This document shows, in pieces, positions 22,286 to 25,000 of a stretch of DNA of 64,000 bases (within the stretch, counting starts at the first letter, position 1; the number at the start of each line of letters is the position of its first letter). The position numbers and the translations under genes were made by a program. Under the pieces are notes generated by a model. It had not been told where the DNA came from. It did no database searches and worked only from the letters and a program-made list of their open reading frames with translations. The stretch comes from Solwaraspora sp. WMMD406 (GTDB taxonomy: Bacteria; Actinomycetota; Actinomycetes; Mycobacteriales; Micromonosporaceae), in contig NZ_JARUBF010000001.1 in NCBI RefSeq assembly GCF_029626025.1, positions 5,674,001 through 5,738,000 of the forward strand, read 5' to 3'.

Positions 22286-22341
22286 CAGGACCGCCGGCCA
22301 GGAGACGGTCAGGACCGCCGATCAGGAGACGATCAGGACCG
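22286..22341 (-). repeat. 24-bp tandem repeat spanning the stop codon of the DUF839 gene
   Basis: Units begin CAGGACCG at 22286, 22310 and 22334, with 24-bp period (two full copies and a partial). Read in the gene direction the repeat contains GGTCCTGA, so the stop TGA of the DUF839 gene is inside it. Confidence 0.85.
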
Positions 22342-23487
22342 GAACGGGCCGCGTACCTCGTAGGTGATCCCGCCGGACGACGACCCGGAGGTGCCGCGCT
22401 GGGAGGAGAAGTAGAGCCGGGTGCCGTCCGGGGAGAACGCCGGACCGCAGATCTCCGACGACGACTGCCCGCTGATCCGCAGGAACGGGGCGACCCGTTC
22501 GTCGGGGGTGATGACGCAGATCTCCATGTTGCCGCCGTCCTCGGCGACGTAGAGGTCGCCGCCGCGCGAGCCGGTGATGTTGTCCACCCCGGTCAGCGGT
22601 GGGGTGCCGGAGATTAGCGAGTCGTCGTAGGCCAGGTCGATGCGTTGGTTGACCGCGTCGTACGCCCAGACCCGGTTGTCGCCCTTGGTGGTGAACCAGC
22701 AGACGCCGTCGGCGTAGTGGCAGCCTTCGCCGCCGTTGAACCGCTTGGCGCCGGAGACCTGGTTGCGGGTCGCGGTCGGCAGGCCGTCCACGTCGGGGAC
22801 CCGGGCCCAGCTGACCGGCCCGCTGGTGGCGGTGCCGGCGACCAGGACCTCCAGGGTGCCGGCGGACAGGTTGCCCCAGGTGGTCGGGCGGAAGCGGTAG
22901 AAGCAGCCGTTGCTTTCGTCTTCGGTGAGGTAGATGACCTGGCGAACCGGGTCGGCGGCGGCGGCCTCGTGGTTGAACCGGCCCATCGCGTCGCGGCGGA
23001 CGGCAGTGGTGCCGCCGAGCGGGTACGTCTCGTAGACGAAGCCTCGGCTGACTTCCTCGCAGGACAGCCAGGTTCCCCACGGGGTCGCTCCCCCGGCGCA
23101 GTTACGGTTGGTGTTGGCCAGGATCCGGTACGCCGAGACGATGCCGCCGCCGGAGTCGAACCGGATCGCCGAGGCGCCGCCGGTGCGGGAGATCTCGGAG
23201 TTGGAGACGTAGACCCAGCCGGAGCCGGCGATGAAGCAGGCGCCGCCGTCCGGGGCGTCGTGCCAGACGTACGAGGTGGTGCCGACCCGTTGCCGCGACC
23301 GGGCGACGATCCGGCTGGTGAATCCGCTGGGCAGGGCGATGCCGTTGGCGTCGGGGCTGCCCAGTGGCCCGTACGGGCTGGCTCCGGGTTGGGCCGGGGC
23401 AGCGAAGGCACCGGTCCAGAGGCTGCCGGAAAAGGCGGCGGTGCCGGCGCCGACCACGGCGGCGCGCAGCATGGTACGACGGTCCAT
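22333..23487 (-). CDS. Tat-exported DUF839/PhoX-like protein
   Basis: 384 aa. The N-terminus MDRRTMLRAAVVGAGTAAFS is a twin-arginine signal ending near an Ala-X-Ala site (GAFAAPAQ), so it is exported folded. The rest is a beta-propeller of the DUF839 type: repeated motifs WGTWLSCEE, GRFNHEAAAADP, YLTEDESNGCFYRF, YFSSQRG. DUF839 includes the PhoX alkaline phosphatase, but a metal-binding set cannot be confirmed here. GGAGG five bases before ATG 23487 fixes the start. It is divergent from the aroF leader. Confidence 0.9.
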   Translation of the reverse strand: MDRRTMLRAAVVGAGTAAFSGSLWTGAFAAPAQPGASPYGPLGSPDANGIALPSGFTSRIVARSRQRVGTTSYVWHDAPDGGACFIAGSGWVYVSNSEISRTGGASAIRFDSGGGIVSAYRILANTNRNCAGGATPWGTWLSCEEVSRGFVYETYPLGGTTAVRRDAMGRFNHEAAAADPVRQVIYLTEDESNGCFYRFRPTTWGNLSAGTLEVLVAGTATSGPVSWARVPDVDGLPTATRNQVSGAKRFNGGEGCHYADGVCWFTTKGDNRVWAYDAVNQRIDLAYDDSLISGTPPLTGVDNITGSRGGDLYVAEDGGNMEICVITPDERVAPFLRISGQSSSEICGPAFSPDGTRLYFSSQRGTSGSSSGGITYEVRGPFRS

Positions 23488-23614
23488 CTCGACCTCCGTC
23501 AACAACGACAATGATCGATAGGCTAGCCACGCTCGGTGACCGGACATATCGACATCGGTTAACGCGAGGCAAGAAGCCACCGAAGTTCATGGTGGCGTCG
23601 CGGCGCGAGTCCGG

Positions 23615-23620
23615 TACAGT
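23615..23620 (+). promoter_or_regulatory. -10 box of the aroF leader transcript
   Basis: TACAGT ends seven bases before GTG 23628, so the leader peptide would itself be translated from a leaderless mRNA. Confidence 0.5.
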
Positions 23621-23627
23621 GATCGCC

Positions 23628-23687
23628 GTGACGCGTGTGTATCGATGGTTTATGCGGCCGGCCCTGGTGCCGGTGACGCGGCCTTGA
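23628..23687 (+). CDS. aromatic leader peptide for attenuation
   Basis: A 19-codon frame, GTG to TGA, encoding VTRVYRWFMRPALVPVTRP. Consecutive Tyr-Arg-Trp-Phe codons (5-8) are a clear sensor for charged tRNA-Tyr, -Trp and -Phe, the end products that regulate DAHP synthase. Downstream are mutually exclusive hairpins ending in a terminator before aroF. The stop codon falls in the first pairing arm. Recognised by position and composition; the peptide has no other expected function. Confidence 0.8.
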   Translation: MTRVYRWFMRPALVPVTRP

Positions 23688-23742
23688 TCTGACGTCACCC
23701 CCTCCAGAGCCGGCCAAGGGCAGGGCGTCCGCCCCTGCCCTT
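23658..23742 (+). promoter_or_regulatory. transcription attenuator upstream of aroF
   Basis: Segments that can pair: GGTGACG (near 23672-23678) with CGTCACC (near 23693-23699); and the GCCGGC..CTGG segment (near 23657-23667) with CCAG.GCCGGC (near 23704-23714). The terminator follows: AAGGGCAGGG (23716-23725), 7-base loop, CCCTGCCCTT (23733-23742), then T. Ribosome stalling at Tyr/Trp/Phe codons would change the folding, letting transcription reach aroF. Confidence 0.75.
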
Positions 23743-23743
23743 T
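23716..23743 (+). terminator. attenuator terminator hairpin
   Basis: Perfect 10-bp stem AAGGGCAGGG/CCCTGCCCTT with a 7-base loop, ending in a short T-run, between the leader peptide and aroF. Confidence 0.85.
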
Positions 23744-23816
23744 CGCATGCCAACGAGCAGCCGGCTCGCGCCTGGGGACGCCGGCCCCCAGGGAGGTCGG
23801 CGGAAGGAAGACCATC

Positions 23817-24899
23817 GTGATCCCGTCCGGACGCGTCACCGACCAACGCATCGACCGGGTCGTCCCGCTGACCACCCCGGCCCTGCTGCACCACGAACTC
23901 CCCCTCGACGAACAGCTCTCCGCGCGGGTCCTGGAAGGCCGACGAGCCGTCGCCGGGGTGCTGGACGGCCAGGACGATCGACTGCTGGTCGTGGTCGGTC
24001 CCTGCTCGGTGCACGACCCGGCAGCCGCCCTGGAGTACGCGCACCTGCTCGCCGCCGCCGCCGAACGACTCGCCGACGACCTGTTGATCGTGATGCGGGT
24101 GTACTTCGAGAAGCCCCGCTCGACCGTCGGCTGGAAGGGCCTGATCAACGACCCGGGCCTGGATGGTTCCGGCGACGTCAACTCGGGCCTGCGGATCGCC
24201 CGTTCCCTGCTGCTGGAGGTGTTGCGCACCGGCCTGCCGGTCGGTTGCGAGTTCCTCGACCCGATCACCCCGCAGTACATCGCCGACACGGTCGCCTGGG
24301 GAGCGATCGGCGCGCGGACCGTCGAAAGCCAGGTGCACCGGCAACTCTCGTCCGGGCTGTCGATGCCGATCGGGATGAAGAACCGTCCGGACGGCAGCGT
24401 GGAGACCGCCGTCGACGCGATCCGCGCCGCTGGCGTACCGCACGTCTTCCCCGGTATCGACATGTCCGGAACCCCGGCGATCCTGCACACCCGGGGCAAC
24501 GCCGACTGTCATCTGGTGCTCCGAGGTGGCGCGGGCGAACCCAACTACGACGCCGAATCGGTCACTGCCGCGTTGTCCCTGCTGAGCGCCGCACGGTTGC
24601 CGCAGCGGCTGGTCATCGACGCCAGTCACGGCAACAGCGGCAAGGACCACCGCCAGCAGCCGGTGGTGGTCGAGGACATCGCCGAGCAGTTGGCGGGTGG
24701 GCAGCGCGGCATCGTCGGGGTCATGCTGGAGTCGTTCCTGGTGCCCGGCCGCCAAGACCTCGATCCGACCCGCGACCTGGTGCACGGTCAGTCGATCACC
24801 GACGCGTGCCTGGGCTGGGACCAGACGGAGCAGGTGCTGCGGCGGCTGGCCGAAGCGGTCGGTGACCGCCGCTCGGCCCTGGCCACGGCGACGCAGTAG
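23817..24899 (+). CDS. aroF: 3-deoxy-7-phosphoheptulonate synthase, class I (AroF/G/H type)
   Basis: 360 aa. It condenses phosphoenolpyruvate and erythrose 4-phosphate, the first step to chorismate. Class I motifs: VVVGPCSVHDP (near residue 58), MRVYFEKPRSTVGWKG, GIGSR-type loop replaced by VESQVHRQLSSGLSMPIGMK, then RGG and DASHGNS for metal and PEP binding. Many actinomycetes use the class II enzyme; having class I with its own attenuator is notable. GTG 23817 has GGAAGGAAG about seven bases upstream. Followed by a heptamer repeat. Confidence 0.95.
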   Translation: MIPSGRVTDQRIDRVVPLTTPALLHHELPLDEQLSARVLEGRRAVAGVLDGQDDRLLVVVGPCSVHDPAAALEYAHLLAAAAERLADDLLIVMRVYFEKPRSTVGWKGLINDPGLDGSGDVNSGLRIARSLLLEVLRTGLPVGCEFLDPITPQYIADTVAWGAIGARTVESQVHRQLSSGLSMPIGMKNRPDGSVETAVDAIRAAGVPHVFPGIDMSGTPAILHTRGNADCHLVLRGGAGEPNYDAESVTAALSLLSAARLPQRLVIDASHGNSGKDHRQQPVVVEDIAEQLAGGQRGIVGVMLESFLVPGRQDLDPTRDLVHGQSITDACLGWDQTEQVLRRLAEAVGDRRSALATATQ

Positions 24900-24930
24900 T
24901 CCGACGTCGTCGACCGGCGTCCTCGACCGA

Positions 24931-25000
24931 GTCCGGGGTCCGGGGTCCGGGGTCCGGGGTCCGGCGTCCGGGGTCCGGGGTCCGGCGTCCGGCGTCCGGC
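24931..25000 (+). repeat. 7-bp tandem repeat, ten copies
   Basis: Ten units of GTCCGG followed by G or C run uninterrupted for 70 bases, 31 bases downstream of the aroF stop. No frame here is credible, so it is probably a length-variable non-coding repeat. Confidence 0.95.

Follow-up and report, generated by a model that had tools for sequence, protein, structure and literature searches.

Results and Discussion

A leaderless aromatic leader precedes aroF

The type I DAHP synthase gene aroF in the window, by which we mean the whole 64-kb stretch of DNA analysed here, is preceded by a short open reading frame that encodes a Tyr-Arg-Trp-Phe run, and related leaders stand before aroF in many actinobacterial genera. 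The best explanation of this leader is a ribosome-mediated leader-peptide attenuator of the type I DAHP synthase gene, homologous to the aroR-aroF arrangement of Corynebacterium. Judged by sequence comparison, it is probable that aroF is under aromatic-responsive, ribosome-mediated control through the leader; this estimate excludes the putative output of that control, which is considered separately below.

The elements at the locus follow one another in the order TAnnnT box, GTG start codon, 19-codon Tyr-Arg-Trp-Phe peptide, 10-bp hairpin with a short U run, and aroF (Table 1), in a genome of 7.16 Mb whose nearest named aroF relatives are those of Micromonospora. The GTG codon begins seven bases downstream of TACAGT, consistent with the leaderless layout that an earlier, sequence-only reading of this DNA had proposed. 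The putative start likewise follows the box by 7 nt in 141 of 170 matching actinobacterial regions (6 nt in 24 and 8 nt in 5, the range of 6-8 being set by our criterion). Nine leaderless short ORFs were found on both strands of the window, and among them only the aroF leader has three aromatics within eight codons.

A generic scan of positions 23300-24000 returned neither a sigma-70-type promoter, for which it demands two hexamers, nor an intrinsic terminator, for which it wants five T in eight; because it finds neither, the promoter and terminator calls rest on the TAnnnT box, the fold and the comparison with relatives. The terminator of 10 bp that had been claimed earlier is present as a hairpin, here termed T, with arms AAGGGCAGGG and CCCTGCCCTT (10 bp, loop of 7, 23716-23742) and a weak U run after it (CTTTCG, 3-4 U), but it goes uncalled by the generic scan.

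At 23684-23692 the sequence TTGATCTGA contains TGA in two frames, so that a leader whose frame shifts after the aromatic codons can still meet a stop within the hairpin loop. Repeats of GGGGTCC / GGCGTCC run directly 3′ of aroF (24930-25000). No curated Rfam family matched the aroF leader at gathering score; the window has a single Rfam match, to a c-di-AMP riboswitch at another place (RF00379, 31254-31386, plus strand, 75.3 bits).

Table 1. Features of the aroF leader region, in coordinates of the window.
Feature	Position	Strand	Basis
TACAGT, putative actinobacterial-type -10 box (TAnnnT)	23615-23620	+	sequence; box and spacing common to 170 of 200 regions
Leader ORF, GTG start 23628, peptide VTRVYRWFMRPALVPVTRP, stop TGA 23685-23687	23628-23687	+	sequence and comparison
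Putative control codons TAT CGA TGG TTT (Tyr-Arg-Trp-Phe), leader codons 5-8	23640-23651	+	
Segment a, directly 3′ of the aromatic codons, partner of c	23656-23667	+	
Inner hairpin GGTGACG...GACGTCACC between a and c, leader stop codon in its loop	23672-23699	+	fold
Segment c, partner of a or d, adjoining the terminator hairpin	23704-23715	+	
T, 10-bp G+C-rich hairpin with short U run, likely intrinsic terminator	23716-23745	+	fold; covariation of the equivalent hairpin in A2
Segment d (CAGCCGGCTCG), other partner of c, 3′ of T	23758-23768	+	
aroF Shine-Dalgarno region (GGCGGAAGGAAG; GGAAGGA)	23799-23810	+	sequence
aroF, type I DAHP synthase, GTG start 23817	23817-24899	+	TIGR00034, PF00793
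Divergent gene with PhoX and PD40 matches, upstream neighbour	22333-23490	-	domain matches

The leader is widespread in actinobacteria

We took 201 actinobacterial aroF upstream regions from named contigs and further genomes, of which 200 were distinct; part of the listed loci was taken, and the sample is skewed to the window's family and order because the searches began from the window's aroF protein. A leader was scored when TAnnnT was followed after 6-8 nt by ATG or GTG and an ORF of 8-45 codons that held three aromatics within eight codons. By this criterion 170 of the 200 regions carry a leaderless aromatic ORF before aroF, as compared to 0 of the 200 reverse strands. The aromatic-codon leader peptide that had been read before the DAHP synthase gene is supported, as is its leaderless layout. 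Named matches include Micromonospora, Paractinoplanes, Kribbella, Nocardia, Rhodococcus, Amycolatopsis, Mycobacterium colombiense, Dietzia, Williamsia, Glycomyces, Catellatospora, and one Streptomyces.

The remaining 30 regions include five with a two-aromatic leader only (L166, L171, L193, L198 and L249) and 24 in which no such leader was found, 18 of them scanned and read by eye and six (L234-L239) scanned. Among these 24 are two named Nocardiopsis (L009, L055) and four second aroF copies of an Amycolatopsis-like genus (L184-L187). Also among the misses is L014, from a Streptosporangiaceae bin, in which the aromatic codons and an a-like segment are retained and no stop lies within the allowed length; by eye it reads CGCTTACC where others carry a stop in CGCTGACC, and its ORF runs on. 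Two aroF copies in genome G004 (L087 and L088) have identical leaders and lie at about 45 kb and 6.74 Mb, near opposite ends of one contig, perhaps reflecting an assembly overlap or a terminal repeat.

The order of the aromatic residues varies by lineage (YRWF, FYWF, YWRF, YFWF, RWYAYF, RRYPYF), and in Micromonospora the tail of the peptide shifts frame while the RNA segments persist. Selection therefore seems to act on the codons and the RNA rather than on the peptide.

Aromatic residues and codon choice

Among the 162 leaders extracted ahead of the Corynebacterium-like set, the first 16 residues include all three of Tyr, Trp and Phe in 144, or in 115 of the 132 distinct peptides; taken singly, Tyr occurs in 161, Trp in 146 and Phe in 161. 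The combination of all three aromatic amino acids in one peptide, noted earlier for the window leader, is accordingly a common property of the family. Trp is missing from 16 leaders, 14 of which belong to family f34 (RRYPYF type) and two to genus g12 of the window's family.

The choice of codons is strongly biased. Phe is encoded by TTT in 170 of 202 cases in the leaders as compared to 4 of 324 in long window ORFs, and Tyr by TAT in 172 of 182 as compared to 17 of 265, the reference being 12,681 codons from long window ORFs filtered for high GC3. We read this bias as probable selection for slow decoding, to which a structural reason may be the alternative.

Predicted alternative pairings of segments a, c and d

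The RNA from 23628 to 23746 has a predicted folding energy of -61.9 kcal/mol (z -4.35), with none of 200 shuffles equally good. In predicted duplexes, the median distance from the last aromatic codon to the start of segment a is 3 nt, which would place a beneath a stalled ribosome, and the median gap between the end of segment c and T is 0 nt. Segment d is a near-copy of a that lies beyond T, and c can pair with d in place of a. We assessed these pairings by a swap test on 57 non-redundant leaders out of 118. Segments a and c paired better with their own partner (-33.0 kcal/mol) than across leaders (-24.9 kcal/mol), a difference reached in 0 of 5000 permutations; for c and d the own and swapped values were -26.6 and -24.1 kcal/mol, again with 0 of 5000. 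The permutation leaves relatedness in, which the controls share, and these gave 1089 of 5000 for the same-sense pair a:d and 442 of 5000 for c:d with c reversed.

Alignment A2 brings together 22 APGG-type and ALEE-type leaders, the majority from other families and three from the window's family. Here a:c plus T were paired in 97.2% of cells and 11 of 20 pairs had changes in both partners, which 0 of 500 shuffles reached; moreover, RNAalifold returned both a:c and T unaided. Alignment A1, of 30 Micromonosporaceae and one Kribbella, gives weak covariation support because its helices are nearly invariant G+C: 3 of 15 pairs had changed on both sides (65 of 500 shuffles), with the covariation score matched by 2 of 500. 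RNAalifold returned no a:c for A1, so a manually specified structure served for counting these pairs. The check that had been suggested for the earlier reading, conservation of peptide and hairpins in relatives, is consequently borne out by the aromatic leaders of the 170 regions together with the covariation of a:c and T in A2. In aggregate, the sequence comparison supports the sensor peptide, the leaderless spacing, a:c and T, and more weakly c:d.

To describe how a ribosome over segment a might redirect c, we masked a in an equilibrium model. The mean downstream pairing of c rose from 0.36 to 0.65 in the 120 leaders with T, going up by more than 0.2 in 62 and down in 2, and from 0.00 to 0.63 in the window leader. 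In the leaders without T, 38 after four of the 42 were dropped with c unrecognised, it moved from 0.68 to 0.83 (11 up, 1 down). Without a ribosome, the a:c helix is not dominant in the equilibrium model, with means of 0.40 in leaders with T and 0.17 in those without, and 0.00 in L001. In several lineages d also appears, by eye, to form a helix with a segment e close to the Shine-Dalgarno sequence.

Stalling does not appear to free a trp-type antiterminator

The hairpin with its U run is present in 120 of the 162 leaders; the other 42 lack it by the criterion used, some of them failing solely on U count or stem length. Leaders of Nocardia, Rhodococcus and Amycolatopsis are without T, yet have recognisable a, c and d. 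In a nascent-chain test, we asked if a stalled ribosome would free RNA to take up the 5′ arm of T while the 3′ arm is still to be transcribed. The E. coli trp leader, as positive control, went from an uptake of 0.06 to 0.62. In contrast, the 120 leaders with T gave 0.57 when free and 0.47 at the highest over stalls, with a rise above 0.3 over the free state in 2 of 120 and over the at-stop state in 3 of 120. Thus competing segments in the trp sense, as drawn in the sequence-only reading, are not supported: with a:c against c:d, stalling brings no such rise in uptake of the 5′ arm of T in 118 of 120 leaders, unlike in E. coli trp.

Other conceivable outputs were likewise examined. A full-transcript equilibrium test of T formation gave 0.94 free and 0.95 stalled with a masked (n=120), and over stalls 0.94 free and 0.93 at the lowest, with a drop above 0.2 in two leaders; it was powerless and was discarded because E. 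coli trp was unchanged in it as well (0.98 to 0.97 and 0.96). A short hairpin between c and the 5′ arm of T (GCC...GGC) appeared in several stalled folds, and was rejected as an antiterminator at only about 3 bp. We also rejected access to the Shine-Dalgarno sequence, and the cost of opening the initiation region, as the output, there being no effect in the expected direction: among the 120 leaders with T the narrowest interval around the aroF initiation region became dearer to open on stalling in 72 and cheaper in 29, and among all 162 the accessibility of the Shine-Dalgarno sequence was 0.56 free and 0.57 stalled (up in 35, down in 24). Because the partner of c changes while the arm of T and the initiation region do not, we commit to ribosome-mediated control with a:c as the controlled helix.

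Relation to known attenuators

The aroR leader of aroF (cg1129) in C. glutamicum was reportedly described by Neshat et al. in 2014. Like aroR, the leader in the window is a short aromatic-codon peptide ahead of a type I aroF. Reviews and RNA-seq papers present aroR, in the portions available to us, as a Phe-Tyr-Phe leader before aroF and an attenuator (PMC11802643, PMC4046766, PMC7356990, PMC3890552). According to the relevant portion of a review, stalling on this leader raises aroF transcription under Phe limitation, with no effect of Tyr availability; sensing of all three amino acids by the leaders described here is what their codons would suggest, and the C. glutamicum account, with its response to Phe and none to Tyr, should be read beside it.

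One of 201 genomes of a small-genome genus has a match of 19 bases to a primer published for the region upstream of aroR, and on this basis the genus is taken to be Corynebacterium. The matching genome, whose leader reads MFAARFYFMSGSGAFPRQLAVSRAT, is not taken for the sequenced C. glutamicum strain because the second primer has no exact match in it. In a draw of 61 genomes of the Corynebacterium-like genus, 14 of 15 aroF loci have such a leader, one of these with Tyr-Tyr only. The a:c swap test on 14 leaders of this genus, with L247 dropped (T pattern missed) and L256 being without leader, gave -22.8 for own and -18.9 for crossed partners (0 of 5000 permutations), and uptake of the 5′ arm of T rose by more than 0.2 in 2 of 14, leaving 12 without such a rise. 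These leaders share with the window the spacing from -10 box to start codon, segment a after the aromatic codons, c before T, and T with its U run. They differ in that the C. glutamicum-group genome has Phe-Tyr-Phe and no Trp, and in segment d, which is present in the window and was not seen by eye in Corynebacterium leaders. From these sequence comparisons we conclude that the leader family of the window is homologous to aroR. What these leaders add to aroR is a Trp codon, rare UAU/UUU codons and a wide distribution: a kind of leader studied in Corynebacterium is now seen in many actinobacterial genera, antibiotic producers included, and Trp joins the signals that the aroF leader may read.

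The E. coli trp leader is not leaderless. The aroF arrangement resembles its attenuator (trpL) in having tandem codons for the product in the leader peptide and, ahead of the structural gene, a terminator, but in E. coli trp the 5′ arm of the terminator is taken up on stalling, which was not seen in the aroF leaders. Seliverstov et al. 2005 (PMC1262725), in the part covered, describe actinobacterial leaders for trp, cys, leu, ilv and ileS, which are similar in pairing leader peptides with terminators, some with attenuator parts missing. That part reports no conserved structures upstream of other amino acid pathway genes and does not name aroF. The uORFC-13-1 motif upstream of aroF in Acholeplasma (PMC8632094) is, as far as the accessible text goes, a Phe-linked upstream ORF with a terminator stem before a DAHP synthase gene, but it belongs to another phylum, involves Phe only and has a different structure. 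In the open-access literature, most subscription papers being outside our scope, we recognised no account of an aroF leader outside Corynebacterium.

A proposed mechanism and its rivals

In the mechanism that we propose, transcription would start at or beside the GTG codon and the first ribosome would load on the leaderless 5′ end. When Tyr, Trp or Phe tRNAs are uncharged, it would halt at codons 5-8 with its footprint over a, leaving c free to pair with d beyond T, and aroF would be expressed. When charged tRNAs are plentiful, the ribosome would reach the stop codon and leave, the a:c helix would form adjoining T, and transcription would end at T. Both the stalling and the direction of the response are presumed here. 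Termination would be favoured by the a:c helix beside T and not by the loss of an antiterminator, and in the opposite state c would be disposed of by pairing with d. Where T is missing, a different output, on aroF translation or mRNA fate, would be needed.

Stated in full, as a three-amino-acid attenuator used across actinobacteria without a trp-type antiterminator, in which the ribosome sets c:a (next to T) against c:d, gates aroF to Tyr, Trp and Phe together and employs rare UAU/UUU codons as a sensitive detector, this proposal is tentative and, taken as a whole, somewhat less likely than not. If true, its relay of c:a and c:d would depart from the textbook 1:2/2:3/3:4 scheme. Should the absence of an antiterminator prove real, the route by which a stalled leader ribosome leads to expression in actinobacteria becomes testable. 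The text available of PMC1262725 calls the output of the stalled ribosome ambivalent for actinobacterial ilv and leu leaders.

Another reading, which we consider possible but less likely than not and which is compatible with control of aroF by a ribosome on the leader, retains the same sensor and makes the output translational or a matter of mRNA fate. The switch from a:c to c:d would then act after polymerase passes T, by refolding the RNA ahead of the aroF Shine-Dalgarno sequence, with T a constitutive partial terminator or a spacer. In its favour, c:d sits beyond T and passes the swap test, and the leaders of Nocardia, Rhodococcus and Amycolatopsis keep a, c and d without T; furthermore, a C. 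glutamicum engineering paper, in the part seen, terms aroR a translational regulatory leader peptide. However, stalling is not predicted to make the initiation region cheaper to open, the hairpin and U run are kept in 120 of 162 leaders, and Corynebacterium leaders have a, c and a strong T with no d by eye.

Two further readings appear highly improbable. An arrest peptide, whose nascent aromatic sequence would stall the ribosome on a free effector as in TnaC, would fit the conservation of an aromatic cluster in many lineages, but the order and spacing of the aromatics vary, the Micromonospora tail changes frame where the RNA segments stay, and such a peptide would not need the bias to rare codons. 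That the conserved leaderless upstream ORF and terminator-like hairpin merely set a basal level of aroF, with no regulation, is similarly very hard to reconcile with pathway-product codons in 170 of 200 regions, compensatory pairing and a studied homologue in Corynebacterium.

Other genes and other phyla

A model of the leader, R1, was searched against 26 genomes, some of which contributed sequences to it, and all matches below E 0.05 were upstream of aroF: 11 strong matches (E 1.7e-19 or lower) in 10 genomes, each directly 5′ of aroF, and one weak match (E 0.032) upstream of aroF in G302. Eight further matches had E values of 0.05 to 0.98. The window's genome also encodes one type II DAHP synthase elsewhere, and thus has two DAHP synthases. 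No aromatic short ORF was found upstream of the type II gene at three loci, that of the window's genome included (seven genomes have such a gene). The leader would therefore tune one isozyme of two, so that the proposed tuning of the first shikimate step would hold for the type I aroF isozyme and not for the step as a whole.

Aromatic-rich short ORFs were also seen before type I DAHP synthase genes in Bordetella, Xanthomonas, Burkholderia, Bradyrhizobium and an Anaerolineae bin. At non-actinobacterial loci, at least four aromatics in nine codons occurred in 26 of 55, as compared to 6 of 55 on the reverse strand, with runs such as FYFYFYGF, FYFWYYGF and FYWYF. Such loci include L019, L023, L027, L031, L033, L039, L043, L048, L051-L053, L056, L058, L061-L063, L066, L073 and L078, among others.
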